In this document: positions 14,201-35,851 of the stretch, in pieces | Numbering within the stretch: the first letter of the stretch is position 1 | Layout: each line of letters opens with the position of its first letter | NCBI GenBank assembly: GCA_014879945.1 | Contig: JACSRE010000153.1 | Location: 1-43,043, forward strand | Length of the DNA: 43,043 bases | Direction: 5' to 3' | From: Myxococcus sp. | GTDB taxonomy: Bacteria; Myxococcota; Myxococcia; Myxococcales; Myxococcaceae | The notes under the pieces: model-generated | Told to the model about the DNA's origin: nothing | The model's database searches: none | What the model saw: the letters and a program-made list of their open reading frames with translations, nothing else | Made by a program: the position numbers and the translations under genes

Positions 14201-14288
14201 CGCGACGCGAGTAACAGGGAGCGCCTCGTGACGCCAACGGGCGCTGCATCGGCTGTGAAACGCGCCGCCGCCGTGGCACCGTGGGGCC

Positions 14289-14702: not shown

Positions 14703-14711
14703 ACTTCCGCC

Positions 14712-15273
14712 ATGACGACGGCCCGCCAGCTCCACTTCTCGTACGAAGACTACCTGCGGGCCCTCGACAGCAGCGCGCTGAAGCTCGAGTACTGCTCCGG
14801 AGTCATCTACGCCAAGGCCGGCGGCACGCTGGCCCATGCCGAGCTCTCCGCGGCCGCGATTCGAATTCTGGGCACGGCGCTGCTGGGGCGCTGCACGGTG
14901 CTGACGTCGGACGCCAAGGTGCGAGTCGAGAGCTCGGACTTCGCCGGCTTTCCGGACGCGACGGTCGTCTGCGGCGCGCGCCAGTCTTCACGAATCGACG
15001 CCAACGCGCTCATCAACCCGACCGTCATCGTCGAGGTGACCAGCCGCTCGACCGAGCAGTACGACCGGGGTGAGAAACTCGAGCACTACCAACGCCTGCC
15101 TTCGGTGAAGGCCGTCCTCTTCGTCTCTCACCGGGAGCGGCGCGTGACGGTGGTCGAGAGGCGAGCCCAGTGGGCCTCAGGTGGCCGCTGGCGAACGCGT
15201 CACGCTCGCCGAACCGGCGCTGAGCTTCCTGGTTGACGAGCTCTACGCCGGCATCACCCTGGACCCGAGCTGA
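14712..15273 (+). pseudogene. Uma2 family (DUF820) nuclease, frameshifted near its C-terminus
   Basis: The first 155 codons give a clear Uma2 protein of the PD-(D/E)xK superfamily: YEDYLRALD, LKLEYCSGVIYAKAGG, FPDATVVCG (Asp of the core), PTVIVEVTSRST (Glu-x-x core) and DRGEKLEHYQRLPSV. After RRAQWA at about 15176 the frame runs into Arg-rich text and stops at 15236. One frame over, from 15178, the expected ending is present: QVAAGERVTL, EPALSFLVDELYAGITL and stop at 15271-15273. One extra base (or two missing) at about 15177 restores a protein of about 187 residues, the normal length. It is a recent frameshift or a sequencing error. It is convergent with the retron RT, 34 bp away. Confidence 0.85.
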
Positions 15274-15307: not shown

Positions 15308-16711
15308 TCACTGCGGGAGCTTCGCCACCTGCTCGAGCAGCTGGGCGCCCCGCTTCGGGTCGCTCATGAAGACCCACGCCGCCAGGCCCTGCAGGTGCGC
15401 GTGCGACTCGCCCTCACGGTACGGCTTGCCCTTCGCGCGGTTGTGAATGGCGGCGCGCAGCCTCCGCACCACGTCACGGGCCACGCGCGCCTTCGCCACC
15501 TGAGGGCCCGCCTCGTTGACGGTCAAGCCCGTCACCCGCTGGGCCGCGCCACGCCGCAGCACCTGCGTCTTCTTCGCGTGCAGCGCGAAGCCCTCGCTCT
15601 TCAAGATGTCCTTCGTCGTCTCGACGAGGATGCCGAGCGCGAGGCGCTTTCGCTCGGGCGTCTTCTTGAACGAGAACGTCAGGTCGTCGGCGTAGCGCGT
15701 GTACGTGCACCCCAGCGCGCGGGCCAGCGCCGACAGCCGCTGGTCGAGCCGCAGGCACAGCGCGTTGGTGATGGCCGGCGAGGTGGGAGCGCCCTGCGGC
15801 AACACGCGCGGGCCCGTCGCGACGTGCAGGGTCTGCTCGCGGAACTCGATCAACTGCCGCGGCGCCTCGGTGCACAGCAGCGCCAGGAGGGTGGCCACCT
15901 GCTCGGTGGCGCCGGCCTTGCGCAGCAGGCCCTTCACCCGCTTCCAGCTCACCGTGGGGAAGAAGTCCTTCACGTCGAGCTTCACCACCACGTCGGCGCC
16001 GACGTGGGCGAGCGCGTTCGTCAGCACGCTCCGCGCCGGGAGGAAGCCGTGGGCCGCCGCGTGCACCGGCAGCTTCTCGAAGTAGTGCTCGAGCGCCCAC
16101 CGCTGGAGCGCCTTCAGCTTCGGCAGCGGCGCGGTGATGGTGCGCTCACCGCCGCTGCGCTTGGGCACCTTCCACGAGTGGTAGTGCGTGCTGGTGGACA
16201 CCTCGCGGTGAAAGGTGAGCCAGCGCAGCTCCGACAGCGACAGGTCCATCGCGGCGGCGAGCTCGGTGGCCGTCTCCCACGGCGGCAGGCCGTTGCGCTC
16301 GGCCCGCGCGGCGCGGTCCTTGAGGTCGAAGTCGTCGGGGCCCTTCAGGTCGTCCCAGTGCACCGTGTTGCCGAGGAAGCCGACGGTGCCGAAGCGCCGC
16401 GCCTCGTTGGCCAGCGCCCGCAGCGCCTTGCGCTCGGCGCGCTCCGCCGTCTTCTTCTCCTTGAAGGTCTTCTTCTCGTCCTCCGACGCCGGCCCCGCGA
16501 CGTCGGGGTGGTGCCCGGCCTCGATGAGCTTCGCGCGCACCCAGCCGTCCACCCCGCCTTTGGCCTCAATCTCGAGCCAGCGCGCCTCGGCGGCGGTGCG
16601 CTGCCGCTCGCGCTCGGCCCGCTCGGCCGCGGTCAACTTCACCCGCGGTGGCGCGCGCGTCGTCAGCACCGGCGGCGCGGCGAAGACGTGGTCGTCGATT
16701 CGGTTGGTCAC
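15308..16711 (-). CDS. ret: Retron reverse transcriptase (Mx162/Sa163-like)
   Basis: 467 residues with a GTG start fixed by a strong RBS. It makes the branched RNA-DNA hybrid msDNA using the adjacent msr-msd RNA. RT motifs run in order: KRSGGERTITAP, VVVKLDVKDFF (catalytic Asp246), LPQGAPTSPAITNA and YADD at 340-343. Both retron hallmarks are present: NALAH at 232-236 (NAxxH) and VTG at 393-395, which reads the RNA. A charged N-terminal extension of about 180 residues precedes the RT fold, as in the long myxobacterial retron RTs (about 480 residues). The repeat a2 of the retron RNA ends 39 bp upstream. It is the last gene of the minus-strand block; upstream neighbours encode SWIM, HEAT/WD40 and WGR proteins. 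Confidence 0.95.
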   Translation of the reverse strand: MTNRIDDHVFAAPPVLTTRAPPRVKLTAAERAERERQRTAAEARWLEIEAKGGVDGWVRAKLIEAGHHPDVAGPASEDEKKTFKEKKTAERAERKALRALANEARRFGTVGFLGNTVHWDDLKGPDDFDLKDRAARAERNGLPPWETATELAAAMDLSLSELRWLTFHREVSTSTHYHSWKVPKRSGGERTITAPLPKLKALQRWALEHYFEKLPVHAAAHGFLPARSVLTNALAHVGADVVVKLDVKDFFPTVSWKRVKGLLRKAGATEQVATLLALLCTEAPRQLIEFREQTLHVATGPRVLPQGAPTSPAITNALCLRLDQRLSALARALGCTYTRYADDLTFSFKKTPERKRLALGILVETTKDILKSEGFALHAKKTQVLRRGAAQRVTGLTVNEAGPQVAKARVARDVVRRLRAAIHNRAKGKPYREGESHAHLQGLAAWVFMSDPKRGAQLLEQVAKLPQ

Positions 16712-16717
16712 GACTGC

Positions 16718-16723
16718 CCTCCT
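16718..16723 (-). promoter_or_regulatory. Ribosome binding site of the retron RT
   Basis: AGGAGG six bases before the GTG at 16711-16709. It decides the GTG start. Confidence 0.85.
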
Positions 16724-16750
16724 GCTCGACCCGCGTCGGTTCCCCTCGAG

Positions 16751-16777
16751 GTCACGTCAGTGAGTGGGGCGCCGAAA
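16751..16777 (-). repeat. Retron inverted repeat a2
   Basis: Pairs with a1 at 17003-17029 over 27 positions when read as RNA, five of them G-U wobbles. It marks the 3' end of the msd template; in other retrons the a1-a2 helix is needed for priming. Confidence 0.9.
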
Positions 16778-16801
16778 GCACCACCTTCTCTCCTGGGGCT
16801 C

Positions 16802-16928
16802 GGTAGCCTCACCGGCTCTCCCGGCAGAGGGGCATCCTCCGCGTGGGAGAAACTGCGTTCGCGCAGTTGTCTCAGCTCTCCCACGCGGAGGATGCCCCTC
16901 TGCCGAGGAGAGCCAAGAACAGGCTACC
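16802..16928 (-). other. msd: msd long hairpin
   Basis: A perfect 28-bp stem (16823-16850 with 16877-16904) is extended by 16814-16822 with 16905-16914 (one bulged base, 16906), and after a small internal loop by ggtagcct (16802-16809) with aggctacc (16921-16928). The tip has its own 7-bp stem, 16851-16857 with 16862-16868, closed by a TTCG loop. This is the stable stem of the msDNA. Confidence 0.95.
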
Positions 16929-16955
16929 TAGCGATGGATGTCGGACGATTCTCCA

Positions 16956-16974
16956 GAGCGGCGCAACGCCGCTC
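16956..16974 (-). other. msr: msr stem-loop
   Basis: Eight-bp perfect stem (GAGCGGCG with CGCCGCTC) around a three-base loop, inside the part of the retron transcript that remains RNA. Stem-loops here are the usual RT recognition elements of retron msr. Confidence 0.85.
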
Positions 16975-17002
16975 CTGCGCACTGAAGCGCGAAGGCTGAA
17001 GA

Positions 17003-17029
17003 TCTCGACACCCCGCTCATTGACGTGAC
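17003..17029 (-). repeat. Retron inverted repeat a1
   Basis: 5' partner of a2. The outer 19 positions (17029-17011) contain two G-U pairs; the inner eight contain three. The first guanosine after it, at 16996, is the predicted branch site. Confidence 0.9.
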
Positions 17030-17109: not shown

Positions 17110-18924
17110 TCAGCCGAGCTGCGCGTCGGCGTCGATGAAGCCGTCCCGGGTGAGGCCGTCGAGGCGCGCGAAGTAGGCGTCGCGGGCCTGGGCGTCGGAG
17201 TCGAACCAGGTGCGCTGCTGGCGGGCCTCTTGATGTCGCGGCCCCCACACCACCCGAACCAGCTTGTCGTCGAGCGACACCCGGTACACGAGCTCGCTGG
17301 TGCCCTCGCGGCGAACGTAGGTGCGCGTCTCGGCGCGAATGAGGGCGCGGCCCTCGGGCGTCAGGCGCGCGGCCTCGTCGTGGAGCTGCCGGCGCTGGTG
17401 GAACAGCCGCAGCGCCAGCAGGTGCTCGCACGGGCCCTCGCGGGTGCCCGAGCGCTTGAAGTGCAGGCAGGTGCAGCTCGCCCCGCGCACCCGGCCTTCG
17501 GGGTCGAGGGTGAAGCCGGGCGTGAAGGTGCGGCGGGCCTCGAGGTCCTCCACCTCGCCCGACAGCTCGGTGCCTTCGCTGCCGAGGTCGTGCACCTTCG
17601 TGAGCCGAACGGCGCCCGCGCCCTCGAGCAGCCGGTGCGCCAGCTTCTCGCGCTCGCCGCCGAACCGGATGAGCGAGACGTCGATGGGCGTGTCGAGCAG
17701 CTGCCGCGGCCGGTACTGGCTCTTCACCAGGTCGAACACCACGCGCCCGCGCAGACACTCGAGCTGCAGCGCCGCCCGCACCTCCTTCGCGGGCGCGCCG
17801 AGCGCCTTCACCAGCTCGTCGAAGGCGGAGGGCCCGCGCGTCAGCAGCGTGCCGTGCGCCTTGTCGGCCAGGGTCTCCGCGCTCGCCCCCGGCATCAACG
17901 CGTCGAAGGCCGACGCGCTCGACCAGCCCGAGTCCGTCCACCCGGTGTACCCCACCGTCAAGCTGCCCTTGTCGGCGCCGAAGTCGAGCGCCCAGAAGAC
18001 GGGCAGCCCGGCGCCGAAGAGGTGCACCTTCGCCGACTTCACGTGAGGCAGCGCGCGCGCGAGCGAGAGCAGGCGCTGGCGGCCGAACAGGCGCACCACC
18101 CGCGGCGTCTTGCCCGCCCATGGCGCGCCGTGACACTCGAGCACCGTCTCGAACGGCTCGATGACGATGCGCGGCTGCGCGCCCGGCACCAGCTCGAAGC
18201 GCAGCCCCCTGGGCGGCTTCTTCGCGGCCCTCGTGCGCAACACGAAGAGCAGGTTGTAGAGGTCGATGGGCGCGAGCTCGGCCACCACCGCCGGCAGCGT
18301 CGCCGCCGACTGCACCTGCACGAAGTTGCGCAGCCAGGCCCAGGGCACCTGCTTCGTCTGGGCCGCGGGCGCGTCGCCCCGGCTCGTCACCTCGAGCGAC
18401 ACCGGCTGCCAGCTGCGCAGGCGCTCGAAGCGGGCGATGAAGGCCTCGTCGAGCGACAGCGTCGCGGTGCCGTGCGCCACCTCGCGGCCCTCGAAGAGCG
18501 ACGACGGGAGCGCCAGGCGCGCGTAGCTCGACTCGTCACGCGAGAAGACCTCGAGCGAGAGCTCATCGGGGGTGACCGTCAGCACCGGCTCGAGGACGTG
18601 CCGCGGCTGCTCCTCGTTGCCCAGCTGCTGCTCGAGGAACTTCTTCTGCGCCTCCCAGATCTCCTTGTTCGCCTTCTTCCCCTGCTTGGTGAGGTAGGCG
18701 AGGTAGGTGGCGAGGTCCTTGCGCTTGTAGCGGAGGTCGCTGCCCAGCACGTCGAAGGCCGTCATCAACGCGTCACGGAACAACGCGGGCGCCTTGACGG
18801 TGCCGCGTAGCCCCACCGGCCCGCGGGAGCCATCGACGCCGAGCGTCACCTCGGCCCTGCCGTCTCCGGCCTTCAGCGCGCTGGGCGCGGCGTACTGCAC
18901 CTTCACGTCACGAACGGCGCTCAT
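17110..18924 (-). CDS. SWIM zinc-finger protein with C-terminal WGR-like domain (retron-associated, WHSWIM-type)
   Basis: 604 residues; AAGGAG seven bases before the ATG fixes the start. A SWIM zinc finger is plain: CTC at 484-486 and CEH at 499-501, spacing CxCx12CxH, a motif for nucleic-acid or protein binding. The last 65 residues (TYVRREGTSELVYRVSLD, RVVWGPRHQ) read as a divergent WGR domain, a DNA-end-associated module known from PARPs. The N-terminal 480 residues are unassigned; a winged helix is possible but not visible by eye. It lies 36 bp after the 2418-residue gene and 80 bp before a1. SWIM proteins of this kind are, as I recall, the signature partner of type XIII retrons, which supports a role as effector or regulator of the msDNA-RT complex. 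Confidence 0.85.
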   Translation of the reverse strand: MSAVRDVKVQYAAPSALKAGDGRAEVTLGVDGSRGPVGLRGTVKAPALFRDALMTAFDVLGSDLRYKRKDLATYLAYLTKQGKKANKEIWEAQKKFLEQQLGNEEQPRHVLEPVLTVTPDELSLEVFSRDESSYARLALPSSLFEGREVAHGTATLSLDEAFIARFERLRSWQPVSLEVTSRGDAPAAQTKQVPWAWLRNFVQVQSAATLPAVVAELAPIDLYNLLFVLRTRAAKKPPRGLRFELVPGAQPRIVIEPFETVLECHGAPWAGKTPRVVRLFGRQRLLSLARALPHVKSAKVHLFGAGLPVFWALDFGADKGSLTVGYTGWTDSGWSSASAFDALMPGASAETLADKAHGTLLTRGPSAFDELVKALGAPAKEVRAALQLECLRGRVVFDLVKSQYRPRQLLDTPIDVSLIRFGGEREKLAHRLLEGAGAVRLTKVHDLGSEGTELSGEVEDLEARRTFTPGFTLDPEGRVRGASCTCLHFKRSGTREGPCEHLLALRLFHQRRQLHDEAARLTPEGRALIRAETRTYVRREGTSELVYRVSLDDKLVRVVWGPRHQEARQQRTWFDSDAQARDAYFARLDGLTRDGFIDADAQLG

Positions 18925-18960: not shown

Positions 18961-21900
18961 TCATTCGTCATCGTCGTAGTCCTCGTCGTCTCCGTCGTCG
19001 TCGGCGTACGAGTCGTCGTCACCGTCATCGTCGTCGTCATCGCCTCCGCGGCGGGCCGGCTTCTGGGGCGCGGCGGGCATCATGGCCTCGGCGAGCGCCG
19101 GGTCTGACGCGAGCTGGGCGAGCTGCTCGGCGGTGAACCACTTCGGCGCGTTCTGCCGGCGCAGGGTGGTGCGCTGGGCGCGCCGCAGGGCCCGGAAGGC
19201 GGCCTCACGCAACGCAGGCGTGCCCCAGGGGGCCTCGAGCTTCGGGGGAGGCGGCGCGGCCTTGGGCTCCGGAGGCTTCGGCGCCTCGACGGCCTTCGGT
19301 GGCTTGACCCCTCGCGGCTTCACCTCGGAGTAGCCCTTGCCCGTCTTCTCCTTGATGAGCTTCTCCATCTCTTTCTGCGCGGCCTCGGGCGTGGCGAGCT
19401 TCTTGGGCTTCTTCTGGCCCGCCGAGCCGATCTTCCCGAAGCGCACCGTGGTGGTGGTGTCGACGACCATCACCTCCCAGAACTTCGAGCTGTCATCCTC
19501 TTCGAACTCGAAGCGGCGCGCGCCGGGCATCGAGACGTCGGGGCTGGGGCCGTCGTCCTCGTCATCATCCGAGTCGCCGTCGTCGCCGTCGTCGTCGTCG
19601 AGCTCCTCCTCGTCGTCGCCCCCGTCGTCTTCATCGTCGTCGCCGTCGCCGCCGCCCGCGCTGAAGGCGAGCTTCGCGAGGAAGGCGGTGACGTCTTCGC
19701 CGCCCATGCGGCCCAGCGCCATCAGCGCGGCGCGCTGCACGGCCTCGCTCGAGCCCGACTCGGCCTGCGTCATCAACGCGGTCGGCACCCTCGCGCCGAT
19801 GAGCTTGGGCAGCATCACCGCGCGGCCGGCCTCGGTGGCCAGCATCAGCGCGTCGGCCCGGAGCGCGTCGAAGGCCAGGCTGTCGAGCGGCTTGCTGCTC
19901 TCGAGCAGCGCGACGGCCTGCGGCACCGACGAGGCGATGAGCGCCGACACGGCAGCGCGACGAACACCACCGTCGACGTCGCCCGAGGCCTTCGCCAGCA
20001 CCGGCGCCGCGCCCACGCCGGCGTGCACCAGCACGCGCGCCGCCTCGGCCCGCACGCTCGCCGGCGCCGGAGACGCGCCCGCCAGCGACTTCGCCGCGAG
20101 CTCCTGCACCTGCCGCGCCTCGTGGAGCGTCGCCGCCCAGAGGAGCCGCAAGAAGGCGCTCTCTTCGGCCACCTTGTCGGTGCCGACGCTCCTGGCCCAG
20201 CGCGTGGCCGTCGACGTCGCGGCCGCCACCAGCGCCTGCGCGCGTTGGCTCTGCTCTCCTGGCGGCAGCGCAGCGCCGGCGAGCGCGTGACGCGCCATCA
20301 ACCACGCCATGTCTTCGCGCACCGAGGGGAAGTCGGAGGCGGTGAACTTCACCAGCGCGTCGGTCGGCAACGTCGCGCGCCGCCCGAGGCCGAACTTCAC
20401 CTTCGCGCGCAGCGCCGGCTGCAGCCGCGGGTTCGCCAGGCGCTCCAGGAGCGGCCCCGGCTCGGCCTCGGCCAGCAGGTACGCGAGCGCCGGGCCCGAG
20501 ATGGCGGGCAGCTCACTCGACGCCGCGCTCAAGGCGACGCGGAGCGGATCGCTGGGGAAGCACGCCTCGAGCGCCTGCAGGGACGTCTCGGCGAGCTGGT
20601 GCACCTTGAGGCCCCGCGCGAGCACCGCCTCGCTCGACGGGTCGGCCAGCGCGCCCAGGGCCCGCGTGGCCTCCTTGCGCACCTCGAAGTCGAAGTCGCC
20701 GGCGTCGCCGGCGATCAACTGCAGCTTGCCGAGCGCGCGGTCGTCGCCCACCCATCGCAGCGAACGCACGCCGGCGAGGCGGAACTCGCCTTCGAGGGAC
20801 GCGGCCTCGATGAACTCGATGACGCGCTTGCGGACCTCGGCCTCGGTGAGCGCCTTGAAGAGCCGCCCGAGGGCCTCGATGGCCGCGCCTCGCACCAACG
20901 GCGGCGTCGGCGCCTCTTCCGTTCCGCCCGCGGCGAGCAGCTCGAGCTCCTCGAGCGCGCGGAGCTGACCCGAGGCGCCGAGCGCGAGCACCGCGCGGGC
21001 CTGCTCCTCGACTTCACCGGCGCGCACGAAGAGCAGCAGCGGCCGCAGCGACGCGGGGTGCTGCTTCATCGCCAGCCCCTCCGCGGCGGCCAGCATCAGC
21101 TCCCGGTTGCCCTGCGCCAGCACCTGCTCGAGCGGCGCCTGCGGGGCGTCGTGCTTCTCGACCCTCGCGGCGTAGCTCGTCACCGCCTGTACCCGCGTGG
21201 CGACGTCGCGGTCGGCGAAGAGCGAGGCCAGCAGCGGCCCGTACTCCGGCTCGGCGCCGACGTCGGCCTCGCGCGCGCCTGCGCACCGCAGCGCCGCGTC
21301 CTTCGCGCGGACCGCGGCCCGAATCGTCTGCAGCACGCCAGGGCCGTTTCGCGGCGCCCGCTTCTCGTCGGCGAGGTGCGCCTTCGACGGGGCGCCCTTC
21401 ACCGGCGGCCGGCGGTGGTTGGTGAGGAGCAGCGCGCCCGACAAGGCGGCCAGGCGCACGTCGGCGGCCGGGTCGTCGAAGAACGCCAGCAGCGGCTCGA
21501 GCGCGATGGGGCGACGGGTGCCGGCGAGCGCGCCGATGGCGTCACGCTTGAGGCCGCTGGTGGAAGGCACGCCCGCCGAGTCGGTCGCGGCCGCGGCGGG
21601 CTCGCTCCAGGCGTCGATGGCGTCCTTCGCCTCTTTCAAGCCCAGCCCGGAGCGCGACCGGTACAGCGCGATGGCCTCGCCCTTGCGGTTGGCGCGAAGC
21701 ATCGCCTCGAGGTCGGCGTCGAGCCGCGGGCCCGCGGGCTTCGCAGCCGGCGCGGACTTCGTCGGCTCGGAGGCGGTCGGCATCGCCGCCAGCTCCTGCA
21801 GGTGGTTCACCAGTGCGAGCGCGGCCGCGTCGGTGGCGCAGGTCGAGAGCGCCACGCGCGCGGCGTCGAGGAGCGGGCCGTCGACCACCAGGAAGCTGGC

Positions 21901-24900
21901 CAGCACCGGCACGGCGCTGTCGTCTCTGCGCTCGGCGAGCAGCTGCGCGGCCAGCAGGCGCACGTCTTCGCGGTCGCTCTCGAGGGCCTTGCGCAGCGCG
22001 GGCACCACGCGCGCGTCACGGCTGGCGGCGAGCTTCTGCAGCACGCCCAGGCGCAGGTCGGCGTGGGGGCTACCGAGCGCCGCCATCAAGGCGTCGAGGG
22101 AGCCGGGCCCATCGGCGCGCTCCAGCAACACGAAGGCGTGCTGCCGCACCTCGGGCACGTTGGAGGCGAGCGCCTCGACGAACCAGGGCCGCGCCGTCGG
22201 GCCTCGCGCGTTGAGCTGCTCGAGCGCGAGCAGGCCCACGTCGGCGGAGGACGACGAGAGCGCGTGGCGGACCGCGACGTCGGGCGTGGCGGCGAGCAGC
22301 TTCGTCAGGCCCGCCATCGCCTTCTTGCGCACCAGGCCGTCTTCGTCGTCGAGCGCGCGCACCAGGGCGGGCACGACGGACGCTGGCTTGGGGCTGCCGG
22401 CCGAGGCCAGCTCGGTCATGCGGTCGACGCAGTCACGGCGCACCCGGCGCACCGTCTCGTCGGGGCTCGAGAGCCGCAGCAGCCCGACGTAGGCGCCGAA
22501 CGCAATCCACCGGCGCACCTCGAGCTCCTTCTCGTTGGGCGAGGCCACCTTCGTCGCGGCGCCGGCGAAGAGCTTGCGCAGCCAGTCCTTCCGCGCGACC
22601 GCGTCGGTGCTGGCGCGCCCACGTTGGTTGGTGTCGGGCACCACCGTCTCGGCCGCCGGGCGCAGGGCCACCACGCGCTTGACCTCGGCGAAGAACTCGA
22701 GCGGCTTGCGGCGCAGCAGCAGCGTCTGGCCGGCGAGGTACCGGGCCTGGGGCGTGTCGGCGCTCAGCAGCTGCACCAGGCGCATGGCCGCGCGCTCCCG
22801 CTCGCCCTCCTCCGGCCAGTCCTTCATGTCGCCGGCCTTCTCGGGCTTCGCGGGGCTCACCGCCTCGAGGAGGAGCTCGGTGTACGCGCCGACGTCGGCG
22901 CGGAGCTCGAGGGCCCGGGCCGCGGCGTAGCGCACGTCGGCGCGGCGGGCCGAGAGCGCGGCCGTCAGCAGCTCGGGCTCATGGCCTTCGCGGGCCGCGC
23001 GCAGGTCACGCGCCAGCAGCGTCGCGAAGAAGGTGTCAGACAGGTAGTCGTCGGCGTCGTCGAGCCCGAGGAAGAGGGCGTTGTCTCCCGCCGAGCCGAG
23101 CGCCACCAGCGCCCGCAGCGCGCCTTCACGAATCGGCAGGTGCGAGTCCTTCAGCGTGCCGGTGAGCACCGCGAGGCCGCGGTCGTCTCCGAGCCTCGCG
23201 AGCCCCTCGGCGGCCCAGCTGCGCACCGCGACGTCGGCGTGGCTGAGGGCGTCGAGCAGCAGGCCTTCGGCGCCGGCGTTGCACAGGCCTCGCGCCGCCT
23301 GCTCGCGGACGGCCGGGTTCTCGTCCTTCAGGAGCGGGTCGGCGAAGAGCGCGGCGGTGCGGGCGCTGCCCAGCGTGGCGAGGGCGCCCGTGGCGCGCGC
23401 GCGCAGCGGCTCGAGGAACGCGGGCGGGTGCCGGAGCTTCAGCTCTGCGTCGAGCACGAAGCCGCGCATCGGCTCGACGATGACCTCGTCGCCCCGCTTC
23501 GCGAGCAGCTCGGCCGCGCGCACCCGAACCTCGAGCGCGTCAGAGAGGAGCCCCGCCGTCAGCGGGCCGGTGTCGTCCTTCACCAGCGCGTCGGCGCTCT
23601 CGAGCGCGGCGAGGCGAACCGGGATGGAGAGGTCGGCCAGCGCCTTCACCAGCGGAGAGCGCAGCGCCTCGGCTTCGGGCTTGCCTGAGAGCACCGCAGC
23701 GCGCCGGGCGGCCAACACCCGGGTCGCCGCCGCTTCGGCCTCGAGGCCCTTGAGCCAGGGGCTGGCCGCGCCTCGACCCAGCAGCCGCGCGAGCGCGACG
23801 AGGGCGGCCTCGCCGACGGCCGCGTCACGGTCGAGGACGGCCTTCTCGAGGCGCTCGAGCACCCAGGCCGGCGTGCCCTTGGGGGCGGGCTGGTCGTCGT
23901 CGCTCGGCACCTTCGCGATGAGCGAGAGCTGCCGCACGGCAGCCAGGCGCAGGTCGGCGAAGCGGGCCTGCAGCGCCCGGTCGATGGCGCCAGCGGCGTC
24001 TTTGTCGTGCCAGGCCCACAACGTCTTGAAGGCCTCGGCGCGCACGGCGGCGGCCTCGTCTTCCAGCGCGTGGCCCAGGAGCGTCTCGGCCTCTTCGGTG
24101 CGCGCGGCCGCGGCGAGCCCGACGAGGCGCGAGAGCCCGCGCTTGCGCATGTCTTCGAAGGCGCTGCGCAGCAAGACGCCGGTGAACTCGAGCGGGTGCG
24201 CCTCGTCCTTTCGCTTCGTCAGCGCGTCGGCGGCGGCCGCGCGCACCGGGGCCTCGGCGTCGTCCACCATCGAGGCCAGGCGCTGGCGCGCGCGGGGGTC
24301 CGAGAGCTGCGCGAGCGTCTGCACCACCCAGACGCGGTGGGCGGCGGGCTCCTCGCGCGAGAGCTGGAGCAGCGCCGACACCGCGCGCACGTCGCCCGCC
24401 GCGAAGAGCAGGCCCGCGGCGCCCCGGCTGGCGACGTCGGTGGCCCGCGCCGACATCGCCACCAGCAGCGGCGTGAGGTCGTCCTGGGTGAGCTCCTTCG
24501 AGGCGTTGGCGAGGCCGAGCTTCGTGCGCAGGGCCGCGAGCTGCTCGGCGTTCGGGTCCTTCCCGCCGTTGGCGCGGCGATAGACCTCGGGCAGCTCGAG
24601 CATCTTCTCGAGCAGCGCGGCCACCGCGGGGCGCTCCAGCACGCGCACCACGAAGGCCACCTGCCGCACCAGCACCGCGTCATCGTCGAGCGCGCGGCCC
24701 GAGATGGACTGGAGCTGCGGCAGCTTCGACGTCAGCAGCGCGCGCACCAGCACCTCGGCGCGCACGTCGGGGGAGCCCTTCTCGAAGCCCAGGGCGAGGG
24801 CCTCGACGCCCTCGGGGAAGACGGCCTGCAACGCATCGAGGCCCGCGAGGCGAACGTTGGGGTCGGCGTCTCTCAGCGCGCCCGCCAGCAGCGCGGGCAC

Positions 24901-26217
24901 CAGCGGCACGGCCGGGTACAGCGGCGCCAGGGCCTTGAGGGCCGCGACGCGCACCGACGGGGCCGACGCGCGCACGCCCTCACGCCACGCGGCGAACGGC
25001 TGGTCCTCGGTCTTCGACAGCGCCTCGAGCGCCGCCAGCGCGACCGCCGCGTCGGAGTCTCGCACCAACCCACGCAGGAGCCGGCGCGCGTCTTTCCTCG
25101 GGCCGGCGCCGAGCGCCTTCGCCAGGGCCAGCCGCACCGGCGCGTCTTTGTCGCCGGCGAGGGTCTGCAGCAGCGGAACGACTTCACCCTCGGCGACTCT
25201 GGGCAGGTCGCGCGCGAGCGCCTCTTTCGCGGCGCGCTGGGCCGACTTCAGCTGCGCGGCGGTGACGGCGAAGAAGTCGAGCCCGACGTCGGTCGCCTCG
25301 ACCAACTGTCCGTCAACGGCCACGGTGATGAAGGTGAGCGTGCGGCGGTCGCCACCCACCACCACCTCGCAGAGCGCCTTGCGCGGGTCGCTCTCGACGA
25401 CGGCGATGGCGCGCTGCACGCCGTCGGCCTCGAACGTCTTGCTGCGCTTCTTGTCGTCGAGGCGGGTGGTGCGCACCTTCGCGTCGTGGCCGGTGGACAT
25501 CAGCCGATCGCTCGCGTCCTTCGCGTCGGCCTTCGGCACGGGCAGGAAGGTGAAGGCGGTGGCGCCGCCCGCGTGGCCGGTGTCGCCTTCGCCGCGCACC
25601 TCACACTCCACGGCGCCCTCGAGGTACCAGAGGCGCGTGGCGCCATCGTCGCCGGTCGACGCGAGGCGCCCGTCACGCGGCGTGAAGGCGAGCGCCGTCA
25701 CCGCGCCCCGGTGGCCCTCCATCTCGCGCACGGCCTTCGTCGCGAAGGTGAAGACGCGCACCACGCCGTCATCGCCTGCCGCTGCGACGCGGCCCGAGAG
25801 CGCGTCGAGCGCCACCGCGCGCTGCACGCCCCTGGCCTGGAACTCGTGCTGCTTCGCGCCGTCGGCCCACACCACCACGCGCCCATCGACGCCGGTGGAG
25901 GCGACCAGCGCGCCCGACGAGGCGAGGGCCGTGACGCCGCCGGCGTGCGCCTCGACGCTGCCCTGCCCTTCGCCCGTGGCGAAGTCGAAGCGGTGCAGCT
26001 TTCCATCGGCGCCGCCGACGACCAGCTTCGGGCCCGAGAAGGCCAGCGCCAGCGCGTTGGTGGCGAGGGGGAGCTGCCGCAGCACCTTGCGGGTGCCGGC
26101 GTCGAAGAGGGTGACGGCCGACGCGCCCGAGAGCCGGGTGCCGCCGATGGCGAGCGTCCTGCCGGTGGCGGCGAGCGCCTTGACCTGCTCGAGGTGACCG
26201 ATGGTGTGGTGGGCCAT
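18961..26217 (-). CDS. Giant WD40-HEAT-WGR protein (retron-associated)
   Basis: 2418 residues from the ATG at 26217, 11 bp after the preceding gene (an earlier start at 26310 would overlap that gene). Residues about 1-330 form a WD40-type propeller (HAGGVTALASSGALVASTGVD, HRGAVTALAF, RLASTGDDGATRLW). From about 345 to 2170 there are dozens of HEAT/ARM-like helical repeats (VRLAALDAL, DADPNVRLAGL, REQAARGLCNAG). They are interrupted at about 1497-1537 by RKGEAIALYRSRSGLGLKEA, which matches the C-terminal domain of ribosomal protein L7/L12. An acidic stretch (about 2187-2222) leads into a WGR domain (about 2225-2293: KFWEVMVVDTTTTVRFGKIG, KTGKGY). A Pro-rich segment and a second poly-Asp tail end the protein. 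No enzyme motif is visible. It is likely a scaffold or sensor. ARM-repeat proteins are, as I recall, part of type XIII retrons. Confidence 0.88.
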   Translation of the reverse strand: MAHHTIGHLEQVKALAATGRTLAIGGTRLSGASAVTLFDAGTRKVLRQLPLATNALALAFSGPKLVVGGADGKLHRFDFATGEGQGSVEAHAGGVTALASSGALVASTGVDGRVVVWADGAKQHEFQARGVQRAVALDALSGRVAAAGDDGVVRVFTFATKAVREMEGHRGAVTALAFTPRDGRLASTGDDGATRLWYLEGAVECEVRGEGDTGHAGGATAFTFLPVPKADAKDASDRLMSTGHDAKVRTTRLDDKKRSKTFEADGVQRAIAVVESDPRKALCEVVVGGDRRTLTFITVAVDGQLVEATDVGLDFFAVTAAQLKSAQRAAKEALARDLPRVAEGEVVPLLQTLAGDKDAPVRLALAKALGAGPRKDARRLLRGLVRDSDAAVALAALEALSKTEDQPFAAWREGVRASAPSVRVAALKALAPLYPAVPLVPALLAGALRDADPNVRLAGLDALQAVFPEGVEALALGFEKGSPDVRAEVLVRALLTSKLPQLQSISGRALDDDAVLVRQVAFVVRVLERPAVAALLEKMLELPEVYRRANGGKDPNAEQLAALRTKLGLANASKELTQDDLTPLLVAMSARATDVASRGAAGLLFAAGDVRAVSALLQLSREEPAAHRVWVVQTLAQLSDPRARQRLASMVDDAEAPVRAAAADALTKRKDEAHPLEFTGVLLRSAFEDMRKRGLSRLVGLAAAARTEEAETLLGHALEDEAAAVRAEAFKTLWAWHDKDAAGAIDRALQARFADLRLAAVRQLSLIAKVPSDDDQPAPKGTPAWVLERLEKAVLDRDAAVGEAALVALARLLGRGAASPWLKGLEAEAAATRVLAARRAAVLSGKPEAEALRSPLVKALADLSIPVRLAALESADALVKDDTGPLTAGLLSDALEVRVRAAELLAKRGDEVIVEPMRGFVLDAELKLRHPPAFLEPLRARATGALATLGSARTAALFADPLLKDENPAVREQAARGLCNAGAEGLLLDALSHADVAVRSWAAEGLARLGDDRGLAVLTGTLKDSHLPIREGALRALVALGSAGDNALFLGLDDADDYLSDTFFATLLARDLRAAREGHEPELLTAALSARRADVRYAAARALELRADVGAYTELLLEAVSPAKPEKAGDMKDWPEEGERERAAMRLVQLLSADTPQARYLAGQTLLLRRKPLEFFAEVKRVVALRPAAETVVPDTNQRGRASTDAVARKDWLRKLFAGAATKVASPNEKELEVRRWIAFGAYVGLLRLSSPDETVRRVRRDCVDRMTELASAGSPKPASVVPALVRALDDEDGLVRKKAMAGLTKLLAATPDVAVRHALSSSSADVGLLALEQLNARGPTARPWFVEALASNVPEVRQHAFVLLERADGPGSLDALMAALGSPHADLRLGVLQKLAASRDARVVPALRKALESDREDVRLLAAQLLAERRDDSAVPVLASFLVVDGPLLDAARVALSTCATDAAALALVNHLQELAAMPTASEPTKSAPAAKPAGPRLDADLEAMLRANRKGEAIALYRSRSGLGLKEAKDAIDAWSEPAAAATDSAGVPSTSGLKRDAIGALAGTRRPIALEPLLAFFDDPAADVRLAALSGALLLTNHRRPPVKGAPSKAHLADEKRAPRNGPGVLQTIRAAVRAKDAALRCAGAREADVGAEPEYGPLLASLFADRDVATRVQAVTSYAARVEKHDAPQAPLEQVLAQGNRELMLAAAEGLAMKQHPASLRPLLLFVRAGEVEEQARAVLALGASGQLRALEELELLAAGGTEEAPTPPLVRGAAIEALGRLFKALTEAEVRKRVIEFIEAASLEGEFRLAGVRSLRWVGDDRALGKLQLIAGDAGDFDFEVRKEATRALGALADPSSEAVLARGLKVHQLAETSLQALEACFPSDPLRVALSAASSELPAISGPALAYLLAEAEPGPLLERLANPRLQPALRAKVKFGLGRRATLPTDALVKFTASDFPSVREDMAWLMARHALAGAALPPGEQSQRAQALVAAATSTATRWARSVGTDKVAEESAFLRLLWAATLHEARQVQELAAKSLAGASPAPASVRAEAARVLVHAGVGAAPVLAKASGDVDGGVRRAAVSALIASSVPQAVALLESSKPLDSLAFDALRADALMLATEAGRAVMLPKLIGARVPTALMTQAESGSSEAVQRAALMALGRMGGEDVTAFLAKLAFSAGGGDGDDDEDDGGDDEEELDDDDGDDGDSDDDEDDGPSPDVSMPGARRFEFEEDDSSKFWEVMVVDTTTTVRFGKIGSAGQKKPKKLATPEAAQKEMEKLIKEKTGKGYSEVKPRGVKPPKAVEAPKPPEPKAAPPPPKLEAPWGTPALREAAFRALRRAQRTTLRRQNAPKWFTAEQLAQLASDPALAEAMMPAAPQKPARRGGDDDDDDGDDDSYADDDGDDEDYDDDE

Positions 26218-26228
26218 GGAAGCGTGCC

Positions 26229-28886
26229 TCAGGCCTTCAGCTGCAGGCCGACGTCGAGGTGGGGGTGGGCGACCTTCACGGTGGCGAGCGCGGCCAGACA
26301 GGCCTGCCACTCACCGCGCGCGATGCTGCCGGAGAACTCGAGGAACAACGGGCTGACGGCGCGGGCGAAGCCTTCGTCCTCCACCGCCAGCGCGCGCGCG
26401 GCCTCGAGGGCGCGGCGCTTGGCGGCCTGGGCGCTCGAGTGGCGCTGGGGCAGGTCGCCTTCTCGCGCTTCGGCCGCGCGGCCCGGCGGCAAGCCGAACA
26501 GCAAGGTGCGCAGGAACTCCTGCAGCACGGCGACGTTCGAGAAGCGGCCCGCCGACTCTGGCAGCTTCGCGGGCCCGCGCGGCCTCCACCCCTCGGGGAG
26601 CGACGAGGGGCGGTGGCGCTCCCACAGCATGCGCACGGCCATGGTGCGCACGGAGCGGTCGGCGCTCTCCATCAACCACGCGAGGCGCTCGGGGCCGCCG
26701 AGGCGCCCGTAGTGGCGCGCGATGAGCTCCATCGCGACCTCGCGGCTCTGGCGAATGCGGCTCTCGGTGAGGCGGAAGACGTGCGCGGGGTCGAGCTCCT
26801 CCACCGTCAGGGTGCAGGCAGGGTCCGCGGTGGGCGCGCCGGCGTTCTCGAGCGCGTTGAGGCAGAGGTTGCGCACCTCTTTGTGCTCGCTGTCGGCCAG
26901 CTCGTAGACGCGCAGGTGGTAGCCCCAGCGGCGCAGGTCGGCGCGGGTGATGGTGACGGCGAAGCGGCGCACGTCGGCGCGCGCGTCGAACAGCGCCTTC
27001 CAGAAGGGCTCGGGCAGGTAGTGGGCGAGCGTCAGCTTCGGGGTGAGGGCGTGCGCGATGGCCTCGGGCTGGAGCGGCCCCACCGTCGGGTGGTGGCAGC
27101 GCAGGTACGTCTGGGCGAACACCCGCACCGGGTCGGGCTCCTTCGCGCCGGTGGCCAGCTCGAGCAGCCGCTTCACGCCGCGCTCGACGTCTCCTTCTCC
27201 GAAGTCGCGTGGGTCGACCTGCCCGAGCAGCAGGCGGGTGGCGAACCCGGACAAGGTCGGGTCGGTGCGGCGCGCGAGCGCGAGCAGCCACGGCAGGCCG
27301 ATGCTCTGGAAGGTGGCGTGCGTCGAGAGCAGGTGGAGCGCGAGCTCACGGGTGGCGCGGTTGAAGACGAAGCCCTTCACCGCTTCGACGTCGAGGCCGG
27401 GCAGGCTCCTGGCCCGGCGCAGCGCCTCTGAGGCCAGGGGCGCGAAGGCCGGCTCGGCGAGGAGCGACAACAGCCACGGGGCCCCGAGGTGCTCGGGCGC
27501 GACCAGCGTCGCCAGCTGCCGGGTGAAGCGCAACAGCACGTTGAGCTGCGAGGCGTCGTTGCGGCGTGGGTCGGCGAAGAGGGCCTTGATGAAGGCGGCC
27601 AGCTGCTCGCTCACCTTCACGCGCTCGGCGAGGTACTTGCGCGCCCACTCACGCTGCGGGTTCGCGCCGAAGACGAGCTCGACGAAGAAGGCGTCGGTGA
27701 GGTCGGCGCGGTCGAAGTGCGCTTCGAGGCGCGCGGCGGCCCAGGCCGAGGTGCCCTGCTCTCCGAGCAGCTTCGAGAAGAGCGGCAGGCCGATGGCCTT
27801 CGCGTTGCGCGCCTCGAGCACCGAGAGGGCCCACTGCCGGGTGTCGGCCTGGCCACGGAGCGCGTAGTCGACGACCGCCTCGGCCGGCAGGTCGCTGGCG
27901 TGCGCGCGGGCGTACTCGATGGCGAACTTGCGCGCGGCGGGCGAGGGCGAGAGCAACAGCAGCAGCACCGTCGGCTTGAGCCCCAGGCCCTCGAGCTTCG
28001 CGGGGTGCAGCTCGGGCGTGGTGGTGAGGAGCTCGACGAGCAGCTCGTGCACCGCGGCGATGGGCCGCTGCGCGAGGCGCTGGAGCCACGCCGGGTTGGT
28101 CTGCCGCAGCTGCGCCGGGAAGTGCTTCTTCAGCTTGTCGATGGCGAACTTCGCGACGTCGTTGTGCTGGGCCGACTCGAGCAGCAGCATCAGGGGGTCG
28201 GCGTTGAGCTTCCAGGCGTTCTCGTAGCGCTCGTCGCGCGCGCCGATGGCGTTGTTGCAGGCCACGCCCCGCCACAACGAAGCCCCCGCGGGCAGCTCGG
28301 CGAGGGTGGCGCCCGCGAAGACGGGGTACAGCTCGGGCACGGCGAAGGAGAGGTGATTGAGGTACCGCCAACCGCGGCGCTGCAGGTAGACGATGGTGCC
28401 GCGGGTGACGGCGTTGGTGGACTCGCTGGCGTCGAAGCGCGCCAGCAGCGCGCCGAAGAAGAGCGCGTCTTGCCGCTCCTCGGCCAGCTTGTAGATGCGC
28501 TTGAGCCCGCCCCAGAGGCCGCGGTCGAGCGGCGCGGTGCGCACCAGCTCGAGCGGCGCCGCGCGGGTGGGCTCGGCGACCGACTGGTAGAGCTCGGTGA
28601 GGAAGTCGGCCAGCAGGTACTTGCCGCCCGGCGCCGGCTCGGCCTGGGTGAGGTAGCGCCGCCACAACAGCGCCACCTTCATGCGGCGCTGCGCCTCTCG
28701 CGGCTCGCGCTGCGCCTCTCTGAGCAGCGCCTCGAAGGCCTCGGGCAGCAGCGCGCCCTCTGGCACCGCCTCGGGCACCGGCTGGGGCTGGGCGGCGAAG
28801 TGGATGATGGCCTGCGCGAGGTCTGGCGCCTGGCCGCGGGCCAGCGTCTTCAAGTCCTCGAGCGTGATGTCAGGTCGCTCCGCCAT
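26229..28886 (-). CDS. 885-residue helical-repeat (HEAT-like) protein, retron operon
   Basis: 885 residues; GGAGG five bases before the ATG sets the start. The sequence is almost entirely short amphipathic helices in tandem (LASEALRRARSLPG, DVRRFAVTITRADLRRW, EVRNLCLNALENAG, SVRTMAVRMLWERH), the texture of an alpha-solenoid, without a recognisable enzyme motif. No signal peptide or membrane segment, so cytoplasmic. It is the first gene of the tight series leading to the retron, 11 bp before the WD40-HEAT-WGR gene, and is probably co-translated with it. It may partner that protein or be an additional effector scaffold. The assignment as HEAT-like rests on repeat texture only. Confidence 0.8.
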   Translation of the reverse strand: MAERPDITLEDLKTLARGQAPDLAQAIIHFAAQPQPVPEAVPEGALLPEAFEALLREAQREPREAQRRMKVALLWRRYLTQAEPAPGGKYLLADFLTELYQSVAEPTRAAPLELVRTAPLDRGLWGGLKRIYKLAEERQDALFFGALLARFDASESTNAVTRGTIVYLQRRGWRYLNHLSFAVPELYPVFAGATLAELPAGASLWRGVACNNAIGARDERYENAWKLNADPLMLLLESAQHNDVAKFAIDKLKKHFPAQLRQTNPAWLQRLAQRPIAAVHELLVELLTTTPELHPAKLEGLGLKPTVLLLLLSPSPAARKFAIEYARAHASDLPAEAVVDYALRGQADTRQWALSVLEARNAKAIGLPLFSKLLGEQGTSAWAAARLEAHFDRADLTDAFFVELVFGANPQREWARKYLAERVKVSEQLAAFIKALFADPRRNDASQLNVLLRFTRQLATLVAPEHLGAPWLLSLLAEPAFAPLASEALRRARSLPGLDVEAVKGFVFNRATRELALHLLSTHATFQSIGLPWLLALARRTDPTLSGFATRLLLGQVDPRDFGEGDVERGVKRLLELATGAKEPDPVRVFAQTYLRCHHPTVGPLQPEAIAHALTPKLTLAHYLPEPFWKALFDARADVRRFAVTITRADLRRWGYHLRVYELADSEHKEVRNLCLNALENAGAPTADPACTLTVEELDPAHVFRLTESRIRQSREVAMELIARHYGRLGGPERLAWLMESADRSVRTMAVRMLWERHRPSSLPEGWRPRGPAKLPESAGRFSNVAVLQEFLRTLLFGLPPGRAAEAREGDLPQRHSSAQAAKRRALEAARALAVEDEGFARAVSPLFLEFSGSIARGEWQACLAALATVKVAHPHLDVGLQLKA

Positions 28887-29140: not shown

Positions 29141-30907
29141 TCACTTCTCGGCGTAGCCCTTGCGCGTCTTCTCGCTGATGAGCTTGGCGGCCTCGGCCTG
29201 CGCCTTCGCGTCGCTGTCGTAGTCCTTCTGGGTCACCTGGCCGTCGGTGCCGATCTTCCCGTAGCGGGTGAAGAAGGTGCTGCCCTCGACGCGAATCTCC
29301 CAGAACTTCGCCGAGCCGCCCTCGACGAACTCGAAGTAGCGCGCGCCGGCTTCGTTCGACTTCGACGACTTGCCGCTGGCGGAGGAAGGCGCGGGCGCGG
29401 CGGCCACGGGCGCGACCGGCGCGGCGACGGGCGCGCTCTTCGCCGGCGCGGGAGCGTCTCCGTCCTCGTCGTCGAACGGGCTCTTCTTCTTCACCGCCGC
29501 CGTCGGCGCGCCGACCTCCTTGAAGCCCTTGGCCACCTTCTCGGCGATCTTCTTCTCGGCGTTCTCGCGCGCCTCGGCGTCGTCTTCGAAGAGCTTCTCT
29601 TTCTCTTCGAAGGTGCCGAAGCGGACCTTCTGCTTGGAGCCGGTCGTCTCCACCTCCCAGAAGTAGCGGGTGTCACCATCGGTCATCTCGAAGCGGCGAA
29701 GGGGCATGGGTCCTCTCGGGGTGGGTGGTGGAGCAGCAGGCACGGACATGGGTTTCGAGGTGATGGCCTCGACGCGGCGCACGTTCGCGCCGGGCGACGT
29801 CGAGACGGGGAAGCGGCCGTCGATGCGCTCGCCGACGTAGCTGGGGAAGCGCGGCACGCCGGTGTTCGACAGCTCCTGGTAGCGGAAGGTGATGACGGCG
29901 CCGACCTTCGGCGGGTTCTCGCGCTCGGCGTCGCTGAAGCCGGTGCCGACGTTGAAGCGGGTGCCGTCAGGCAGCTCGACCAGCAGCGCGCCGAGCCGCC
30001 CGGCGTGTCTGCCGAGGCCAGGCACGTGCTCGAGCACCCGCGCCTCGGTGTCGTGAAAGCTCTTCACCTTCAGCAGCGTGCTCGAGCGGCCCGCCTCGTA
30101 GCGGGAGCGCGGCTGGCGCACCATCAGCCCCTCTCCGCCCAGGCCCTCGACGCGCGACAGCTCCCGCTGCAGGTGCTCGACGCCCTCGCAGACGACGTGC
30201 GCGCAGGCCTCGAGCCATTGGGTCTTCAGCGCGGTGAGCGTCTGGTCGATGAAGGCCACGCGCTCCTCGAAGACGCCGCCGTGCCTGGGCGCGTCGAAGA
30301 CGACGTACTTGAGCTCCTTCCACAGCTCCGACTCGTCTTGCCGCTTCACGATGCCGACGGTGCGCTGGAAGCGCTTTCGCCCGCCCCACAGCTCGCCGTC
30401 GAGCGGCACCTTCGGGAGCTGCTCGGTGAACCACCTCGGCGCGAAGAACTCGTTGCCCAGGCGCGAGATGAAGCGCTCGCCGTCCCAGTAGGCGCGCACG
30501 CCGTCGAGCTTCTCGCTGATCCACCAGCCGGTGAGGTCGACGTCGTTCTCCCACTTGTGGGCGAGCAGAATCGGCGGGCCCTCGTCGTCGTCAGCGTCGG
30601 CCGCGTCGCCGGGCGCCTTCGGGGGCCTCGGTCGCGCGGGCCGGCCCGAGAGCGGCGATGAGCCCAGGCGGAGCGTCTCGGCGTCGTCTCCCCGGTACGC
30701 GCGCAGGTGCTTGCAGGTGCGGCGCTCGATGCCGATGCCCTGGTGCATCCACGCGGGGCAGGTGCAGGAGTAGACGCCGCCGTTGTTCTTCAGCGTGTAG
30801 ATGGAGGCGCCGGAGCCTTTGACTTGCGCGGTCTCTCCGTCGGCGAGGTCCTGACTCACGGGCGCCGGTTGTAGCAGAGGCGAGGCCGACTTCTGCTGCG
30901 TCAGCAT
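29141..30907 (-). CDS. ATP-dependent DNA ligase with N-terminal SWIM finger and two C-terminal WGR domains
   Basis: 588 residues from the ATG at 30907, which overlaps the preceding stop; a GTG at 30859 is an alternative. The SWIM finger comes first: CTC at 48-50 and CKH at 65-67. The ligase core follows with nucleotidyltransferase motifs in order: I, EKLDGVRAYW (adenylated Lys133); III, LDGELWGG; IIIa, YVVFDAP; IV, GEGLMVRQP; V, LLKVKSF. An OB fold ends near VGERID. The core is compact like LigE-type minimal ligases but has no signal peptide. After a linker come WGR domain 1 (about 402-465, YFWEVETTGS, KGFKEV), an Ala/Pro linker and WGR domain 2 (about 520-588, KFWEIRVEGS, RYGKIGTDGQ, KGYAEK). 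WGR 2 closely resembles that of the 2418-residue protein. It is probably a nick- or end-sensing repair or defence ligase. Confidence 0.93.
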   Translation of the reverse strand: MLTQQKSASPLLQPAPVSQDLADGETAQVKGSGASIYTLKNNGGVYSCTCPAWMHQGIGIERRTCKHLRAYRGDDAETLRLGSSPLSGRPARPRPPKAPGDAADADDDEGPPILLAHKWENDVDLTGWWISEKLDGVRAYWDGERFISRLGNEFFAPRWFTEQLPKVPLDGELWGGRKRFQRTVGIVKRQDESELWKELKYVVFDAPRHGGVFEERVAFIDQTLTALKTQWLEACAHVVCEGVEHLQRELSRVEGLGGEGLMVRQPRSRYEAGRSSTLLKVKSFHDTEARVLEHVPGLGRHAGRLGALLVELPDGTRFNVGTGFSDAERENPPKVGAVITFRYQELSNTGVPRFPSYVGERIDGRFPVSTSPGANVRRVEAITSKPMSVPAAPPPTPRGPMPLRRFEMTDGDTRYFWEVETTGSKQKVRFGTFEEKEKLFEDDAEARENAEKKIAEKVAKGFKEVGAPTAAVKKKSPFDDEDGDAPAPAKSAPVAAPVAPVAAAPAPSSASGKSSKSNEAGARYFEFVEGGSAKFWEIRVEGSTFFTRYGKIGTDGQVTQKDYDSDAKAQAEAAKLISEKTRKGYAEK

Positions 30908-34582: not shown

Positions 34583-35692
34583 TCAGCCGAACAGCCCGAA
34601 CCCGGTGCTCATGATCACCTGCGGGCCGCCGCCCTGCGTGGCCTGCTGCTTTGCCCAGCGGTGCAGCGCGCGATCGAGCGCTCCGAACACGTCGGCCGGC
34701 AGCTCGGGGAAGGCCATCCACTCGATGGACTCGGGCACCTCGAGCGGCGCGCCCCCCCGCACCTGCACCAGCGCGTTCATGCGGCCGTTCGACGCGACGA
34801 TCTTGCCCTTGCGCAGGCTCACCACGCGCACCGGCGCCTCGAGCTTCTCACCGACGAAGTCGAGGAACGGCCGCCGCTGCAGAATCGTCGACAACACGGC
34901 GGCGGCCGGGCCCTTGATGGCGCAGGTCGTTCGCTCGCCGTTCCCGAACGCCGAGAACTTCGGCAGCGGCAGCTCCCGGTGCCGACACGCGATGGCCATC
35001 ATCGTCGCCAGCACGGCAAGGTCCTGCTGCGGGTGCTCCCGCTTGCCCTCGAGCACGATGAAGACCTGGTCGGCGTCGGGCTGCTTCGGTTCGCCTTTCA
35101 CGGGCACGTACCTCGAGAGCCACTTCGTGAGCGCGCGCTCGGTCGTCTCTTCGGTCAGCTCGAGGAACGAGACGGTCATCAGCGGGTCACCGCGCTCGAT
35201 GGAGAGGACCTGGTGGAAGTCGGCGTTCAGCTCCTTGCCGATGAGGCCGTAGCCCTTCTTCGCGCGCTCGGCCGCGTACAGCGCCGCGTTGTCGTCGGGC
35301 GTCGCCAGCGGGTAGAGGCCCCTGGCTTCGACCTTCACCGGAAACTCGAAGCGCCACTGCGAGCGCCACCGCGCCTTGCCCCTGGCGTCGACGGCGATGG
35401 CCAGCTGCGAGTTGCTGTAGCCGCCTTCGGCGAAGCCACCCCAGAACGGGCGCTTGAAGGCCTTCGCGAAGTCGCCGAGCACCTTCTTGTCGACGAAGTG
35501 GGTGACCTCGCCGTTCTCGCGGTCTTCCCCGACGCGCGCCTCCACCGCCATCGCGAGCGCGCGGCCGCCGTCGAGCTGCACGAGGTACGTCACGCTCGGA
35601 CTCGAGTGCTCGCGAATCCACTCGCCGAGCTCGAGCACCAGCTTCGCGTTCGGCTTCTTGAAGGCCAGCAGGCCTGAGGTCAGGTAGGGCAC
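34583..35692 (-). CDS. Unknown 369-residue cytoplasmic protein
   Basis: Starts at a GTG (35692) giving MPYLTSGLLAFKKPNAK; the frame extends upstream to 35794 but there runs across the SWIM-leader remnant. There is no signal peptide or membrane segment. Visible landmarks are LVQLDGGRALAMAVEA, FWGGFAEGGYSNSQLAIAV, KKGYGLIGKELNADFHQVLS, FIVLEGKREHPQQDLAVLA and a C-terminus ending VIMSTGFGLFG. The text is balanced alpha/beta, with no motif I can assign. A decayed copy of the ligase's N-terminal leader lies immediately upstream, hinting that the gene once had, or replaced, a SWIM partner. Confidence 0.75.
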   Translation of the reverse strand: MPYLTSGLLAFKKPNAKLVLELGEWIREHSSPSVTYLVQLDGGRALAMAVEARVGEDRENGEVTHFVDKKVLGDFAKAFKRPFWGGFAEGGYSNSQLAIAVDARGKARWRSQWRFEFPVKVEARGLYPLATPDDNAALYAAERAKKGYGLIGKELNADFHQVLSIERGDPLMTVSFLELTEETTERALTKWLSRYVPVKGEPKQPDADQVFIVLEGKREHPQQDLAVLATMMAIACRHRELPLPKFSAFGNGERTTCAIKGPAAAVLSTILQRRPFLDFVGEKLEAPVRVVSLRKGKIVASNGRMNALVQVRGGAPLEVPESIEWMAFPELPADVFGALDRALHRWAKQQATQGGGPQVIMSTGFGLFG

Positions 35693-35747
35693 GCGCCGTA
35701 CCTTCGCATGTGAGGGCGCCGAAGTGCCCGGCCATCCCCGGGCGCTG

Positions 35748-35828
35748 GTAAGTGGAGGCCCGGGAGCCTTCGATGTTCGCGGTCGCCCCGTCACTGAGGT
35801 CCTGACTCACGGGCGCAGGTCGTCGCAG
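35748..35828 (-). pseudogene. Remnant of a SWIM/ligase-type N-terminal leader
   Basis: Minus-strand text SQDLSDGATANIEGSRASTY matches SQDLADGETAQVKGSGASIY of the ligase (from 30859 down), and 18 bases before it are also alike (LRRPAPV versus LLQPAPV), including the same GTG AGT CAG GAC CTC. Similarity stops after the Tyr, just before where the CxC of the SWIM finger should come, and the frame does not join the 369-residue gene downstream. It is a truncated duplicate or the relic of a second SWIM gene. Confidence 0.7.
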
Positions 35829-35851
35829 CCAGAACGCAGCGGGAGCACCAG

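Follow-up and report, generated by a model that had tools for sequence, protein, structure and literature searches.

The locus described here raises the question of why a DNA ligase carrying a SWIM zinc finger and two WGR domains is encoded next to a retron operon, and whether it serves the retron or merely neighbours it. The window, i.e., the whole 43,043-nucleotide stretch of Myxococcus sp. DNA that was analyzed (contig JACSRE010000153.1), had been read earlier from its letters; this first-pass annotation proposed that the ligase and the retron proteins read the same DNA signal, and that the ligase could process msDNA, seal retron-induced nicks or act in immunity. We tentatively favour the reading in which WGR-bearing type XIII retrons have the ligase as an optional, accessory partner for nick sealing or repair. 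The chief competing view is that of a general repair ligase with the retron only as its neighbour. The features concerned are collected in Table 1.

Table 1. Features of the ligase gene and the adjacent retron operon in the window (residues of the ligase in parentheses).
Feature	Position	Strand	Basis or remark
Promoter-like GCTAxA element	30869..30880	-	just upstream of ligase GTG
SWIM-LigE-WGR-WGR DNA ligase	29141..30859	-	probable coding region from GTG
SWIM zinc finger CxCx14CxH (48-67)	30707..30766	-	motif; precedes ligase core
LigE-type nucleotidyltransferase + OB core (107-366)	29810..30589	-	Pfam, NCBIfam, PDB
Lys133, predicted adenylation residue	30509-30511	-	
WGR1, degenerate (404-464)	29516..29698	-	local profile, 41.8 bits
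WGR2, canonical (521-587)	29147..29347	-	Pfam PF05406 75 bits; profile 112.6 bits
HEAT-ARM_XIII protein, 885 aa	26229..28886	-	PDLC02921 692 bits
WD40 + HEAT/ARM repeat protein, WGR inserted at 19324-19524	18961..26217	-	PDLC02919 1023 bits
SWIM_XIII protein	17110..18924	-	PDLC02972 479 bits
msd long hairpin of retron ncRNA	16823..16904 (region ~16716-17010)	-	folding + covariation
Type XIII retron reverse transcriptase	15308..16711	-	PDLC02956 487 bits; Pfam RVT_1

The ligase open reading frame (29141-30907, minus strand) corresponds to 588 residues when counted from the earlier start at 30907. The closest relatives resemble the protein only from residue 17 onward, where the codon is a GTG (30859), and in the homologous gene of genome G095 an in-frame stop lies just upstream of the equivalent start; the true start is therefore probably this GTG. 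The GCTAxA element just ahead of this GTG suggests that the ligase has its own leaderless or nearly leaderless transcript. Most of nine aligned homologues have a similar element; the window contains one match, with one mismatch, which alone is not significant. When the window gene is compared with five relatives, each folded domain gives a dN/dS ratio of about 0.02-0.5, so that purifying selection maintains the entire protein. An 82%-identical 76-bp copy of the 5' end of the gene is located about 5 kb upstream (35694-35831, minus strand). The copied part surrounds the GTG start and precedes the SWIM cysteines, and the copy heads the open reading frame 34583-35794; perhaps it is a remnant of a duplication or rearrangement.

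The catalytic core can be assigned with certainty, from its sequence, to the LigE type, in which motifs I-V lie in a nucleotidyltransferase-OB arrangement uninterrupted by any large DNA-binding domain. The motifs are KLDG (residue 133), LDGE (169), YVVFD (201), GGEG (257) and LLKVK (278), and K133, E172, G257-G260, K280 and K282 are invariant in 13 aligned ligase sequences. The protein scores 336 bits against NCBIfam NF006592 'DNA ligase' (cut-off 200), has Pfam matches to DNA_ligase_OB_2, DNA_ligase_A_M and WGR, and finds the solved LigE structures 4d05, 8u6x and 6gdr as its top matches by sequence and fold; in the PADLOC library, no model matched the ligase. The SWIM finger residues C48, C50, C65 and H67 are conserved across the aligned SWIM-bearing relatives. 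The description given in the first-pass annotation, i.e., ligase motifs, a SWIM finger, two WGR domains and Lys133 at its position, is borne out by these motif positions, by NF006592 and Pfam, and by the LigE structures.

The first WGR domain has a deletion at the turn of the WGR motif and is not reported by Pfam. In the AlphaFold model, however, its strands and helices follow the same order as those of WGR2 (pLDDT ~80), and by its profile score and this model WGR1 is real but degenerate. The whole-chain pTM is only 0.40, a value at which the packing of the domains is not interpretable from the model. As read from the aligned homologues, the N-terminus is polar with no hydrophobic leader, and the enzyme is probably cytosolic. 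With its catalytic residues conserved, the ligase is predicted from its family to seal nicks in an ATP-dependent manner, and the WGR domains, likewise judged by family, would provide DNA-end binding or recruitment.

The retron beside the ligase is, judged by its genes and RNA, an intact and typical type XIII retron, since the PADLOC type XIII matches are strong and the msd hairpin covaries; the retron operon of the first-pass annotation is thereby confirmed and typed. It lies downstream of the ligase on the same strand, in the order HEAT, WD40/HEAT/WGR, SWIM and reverse transcriptase (RT), and the order of HEAT-ARM_XIII, SWIM_XIII and RT_XIII is the same in relatives. In the giant WD40/HEAT protein, the PDLC02919 match runs from residue 32 and the inserted WGR scores 111 bits. 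An Rfam search gave no match at the gathering threshold; the msr-msd was instead found by folding and covariation. The long hairpin upstream of the RT gene folds with z = -9.9, and across eight loci 213 of the 214 cells of the msd stem are paired, and 23 of 28 pairs show compensatory changes.

Neither the HEAT homologue of L133 nor the WGR-less operons have the WGR that the giant HEAT protein carries (open reading frame 18961-26310, minus strand); this domain was seemingly acquired or lost in evolution. Downstream of the RT gene, a LETM1-related protein is encoded at 12833-14713 on the minus strand (its NCBIfam NF040639 score of 112 bits is under the cut-off, and the Pfam LETM1_RBD match is weak). 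The same genome has a second, divergent RT_XIII-like reverse transcriptase (G000:C56:10166-11026), for which the 20 kb upstream contain neither a SWIM nor a HEAT partner. In the open literature, no paper was found that describes WGR in type XIII retrons or a DNA ligase with SWIM and WGR domains. We know of no established mechanism for type XIII retrons.

Among 195 Myxococcota genomes, RT_XIII is present in 78 and SWIM-LigE in 53. The ligase family is mostly without retron neighbours: 42 of the 53 copies have no WGR and are unlinked to a retron, with no retron gene within ~6-10 kb, or less at some contig ends. Several of these copies, which occupy ordinary chromosomal sites, adjoin a protein-kinase gene. 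The window's own family has 50 ligases, of which 42 are WGR-less and ~350-400 aa long, and the congeners G090, G093 and G094 have neither the ligase nor RT_XIII. Two genomes, G047 and G089, encode single-WGR ligases with no RT_XIII in the genome. A linked ligase occurs in only 7 of the 78 RT_XIII genomes, and in one metagenome-assembled genome outside this set (see below); the ligase was accordingly rejected as a core gene of type XIII. Viral contigs were also searched for relatives of the ligase, and none was found. The first-pass annotation had named a ligase occurring mostly without retron neighbours across Myxococcota as grounds for refutation, and for the family at large its claim fails on these grounds.

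These observations are evidence for the rival explanation that the protein is a general DNA-repair ligase: a chromosomal accessory SWIM-LigE would have gained WGR domains in one lineage, a retron would have been inserted alongside, and the pair would have stayed together by descent. The WGR-less copies at ordinary sites, the WGR-ligases of G047 and G089 and the separate promoter-like element all agree with it. In addition, a DUF819 gene adjoins the ligase in G091 and G092 and lies within 5 kb in G095, and part of the ligase-retron linkage is therefore shared descent.

The association holds, on the other hand, for the WGR-tagged form, which is found preferentially beside WGR-bearing type XIII retrons. 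All six full-length double-WGR ligases in the window's family adjoin a type XIII operon, upstream of it and in the same direction; in G092, G091 and G011 the ligase adjoins the HEAT genes, the RT being found on another contig. Among RT_XIII genomes, 8 of 10 WGR-ligases are linked (G151 and G194, with contig breaks at both, being counted as unlinked) versus 0 of 39 WGR-less SWIM-LigE proteins. Among HEAT-HEAT-SWIM-RT operons, the ligase is linked in 8 of 8 with a WGR versus 0 of 15 sampled without. The corresponding p values (~1e-7 for the former and, by Fisher's test, ~2e-6 for the latter) treat genomes as independent, ignoring phylogeny, and are descriptive only.

The RT tree places all linked RTs, together with four unlinked ones, in a single supported clade of 12 rows (97/92). 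In the ligase tree, the WGR forms that are linked to a retron cluster with the ligases of G047 and G089, which have a single WGR. The first-pass annotation had stressed that a ligase WGR closely resembles that of the 2418-residue giant protein. The two are indeed very similar (49-54% identity for WGR2), but the likeness is not specific: WGRs of other proteins in related genomes are closer (55-63%), and a special likeness was rejected.

At the six double-WGR loci, the gap between ligase and retron is 115-1541 bp and is filled by unrelated genes, and the outer flanks are partly different. Such variable spacing with unrelated inserts, together with the promoter-like element of the ligase itself, argues against conserved co-transcription; the ligase probably lies outside the retron transcript. 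The gap looks like an insertion spot. By reading, it contains a Doc/Fic-like toxin-antitoxin pair between the ligase and HEAT genes in G010 C17 (L067/L068), a collagen-like gene in G095, and HEAT-like and other genes elsewhere; further unrelated genes are present in the gap in G011, G092 and G095.

Linkage between ligase and retron occurs in three arrangements, although the evolutionarily independent cases amount to only ~3 lineages. Besides that of the window's family, a search of named genomes identified a 57% identical SWIM-Lig-WGR protein in the Erken genome (CAITIQ010000342, ErkenSummer bin, uncultured deltaproteobacterium), where the last WGRs are split off as a two-WGR gene directly behind the ligase. 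RT_XIII is the next gene, on the opposite strand, its end touching that of the WGR gene in a tail-to-tail manner. In G185, which belongs to another family, a distant single-WGR ligase is located ~5 kb from a type XIII operon headed by a separate WGR gene. Such fission or fusion of the ligase and a WGR gene beside the retron is the strongest sign of a functional link. Three arrangements in different families, together with the co-variation of WGR domains between retron and ligase, would be unexpected from one passive insertion, and a general repair ligase is in our judgment a serious possibility that falls short of being likely.

There are also exceptions. Sandaracinaceae L136 has a double-WGR ligase, with an assembly frameshift, and no retron within 8-10 kb, and L163-L165, which belong to other type XIII clades, include a WGR protein with no linked ligase. 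In L171 (G151 C304), a WGR domain is found in another frame directly behind RT_XIII, at ~3440-3625; this retron apparently has a small WGR gene of its own.

The ligase might instead process the nucleic acid of the retron, e.g., by sealing or maturing msDNA, as the first-pass annotation suggested. Genetic linkage to an RT clade is compatible with this, and the long duplex hairpin of the msd could be engaged by a duplex-binding ligase. However, a linked ligase is absent from most type XIII retrons, among them those with the nearest RT relatives, and the msd shows no sign of a nick that needs sealing, which makes this role improbable. Ligases can leave AMP-DNA intermediates, and together with WGR modules of an end-binding type and a location in a defence locus this might point to an offensive ligase that adenylates or joins invading DNA ends and so blocks replication or packaging, but the catalytic residues are all conserved, which points to ordinary sealing, many genomes encode the same core as a gene by itself and no precedent was found, so that we regard this as very improbable indeed.

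In the preferred reading, that of an accessory partner, the protein would be a LigE-type ligase that works in the cytosol and seals nicks with ATP, and its SWIM finger and WGR domains would supply the DNA-end or nick binding absent from minimal LigE. One subgroup of type XIII retrons with WGR proteins of their own would keep the gene adjacent as an optional partner. The retron WGR proteins and the ligase would gather on the same kind of DNA break; Lys133 would be adenylated with ATP, the AMP would be passed to the 5' phosphate, and the nick would be sealed. The ligase may thus repair or limit host DNA damage during phage attack or effector action, a protective role that is hypothetical, as is its dependence on the retron. 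The co-variation of domains suggests that the ligase and the retron proteins have a common target, and the earlier idea of one DNA signal for both fits this co-variation and the linkage, if indirectly.

Because the ligase shares the WGR domain with the giant HEAT protein, and within the HEAT-HEAT-SWIM-RT class is linked only when the operon carries a WGR, DNA ends or nicks can be put forward as a concrete candidate for the shared signal. It is conceivable, although rather unlikely, that this type XIII subgroup possesses a dedicated repair arm, in which a WGR-targeted LigE ligase acts at the structures that the retron WGR protein senses or attacks; the ligase attached to this defence system would then keep self-damage in check or permit recovery.

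Among known systems, the bacterial Lig E enzymes (4d05, 6gdr and 8u6x) share with the window ligase a nucleotidyltransferase-OB core of ~40-49% identity and the same catalytic motifs. Lig E seals nicks with ATP, prefers singly nicked DNA, binds DNA only through its core, has no extra DNA-binding domains and usually has a periplasmic leader (PMC10799422). Unlike these minimal enzymes, the window ligase adds SWIM, WGR1 and WGR2 and is a multidomain variant on a Lig E core; whereas the leader places the known enzymes in the periplasm, the leaderless N-terminus would keep this one in the cytosol. Lig E, so far a minimal exported enzyme, would thereby come to include a targeted and probably cytosolic ligase whose end-binding modules are PARP-like. 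Compared with the type XIII retrons defined in PADLOC (RT_XIII, HEAT-ARM_XIII, SWIM_XIII and WGR_XIII), all operon proteins match and the msr-msd is present, but the window locus differs in the WGR inserted in the HEAT protein and in the attached WGR-ligase. In bdelloid rotifers, a LigE to which PBZ domains have been added is induced by radiation, and it raises the radiotolerance of human cells (PMC10665377). Like the window ligase, it combines a LigE core with added damage-related domains, and it acts in tolerance of DNA breaks; unlike it, the rotifer enzyme is eukaryotic and horizontally acquired, bears PBZ rather than SWIM or WGR domains and is accompanied by no retron.
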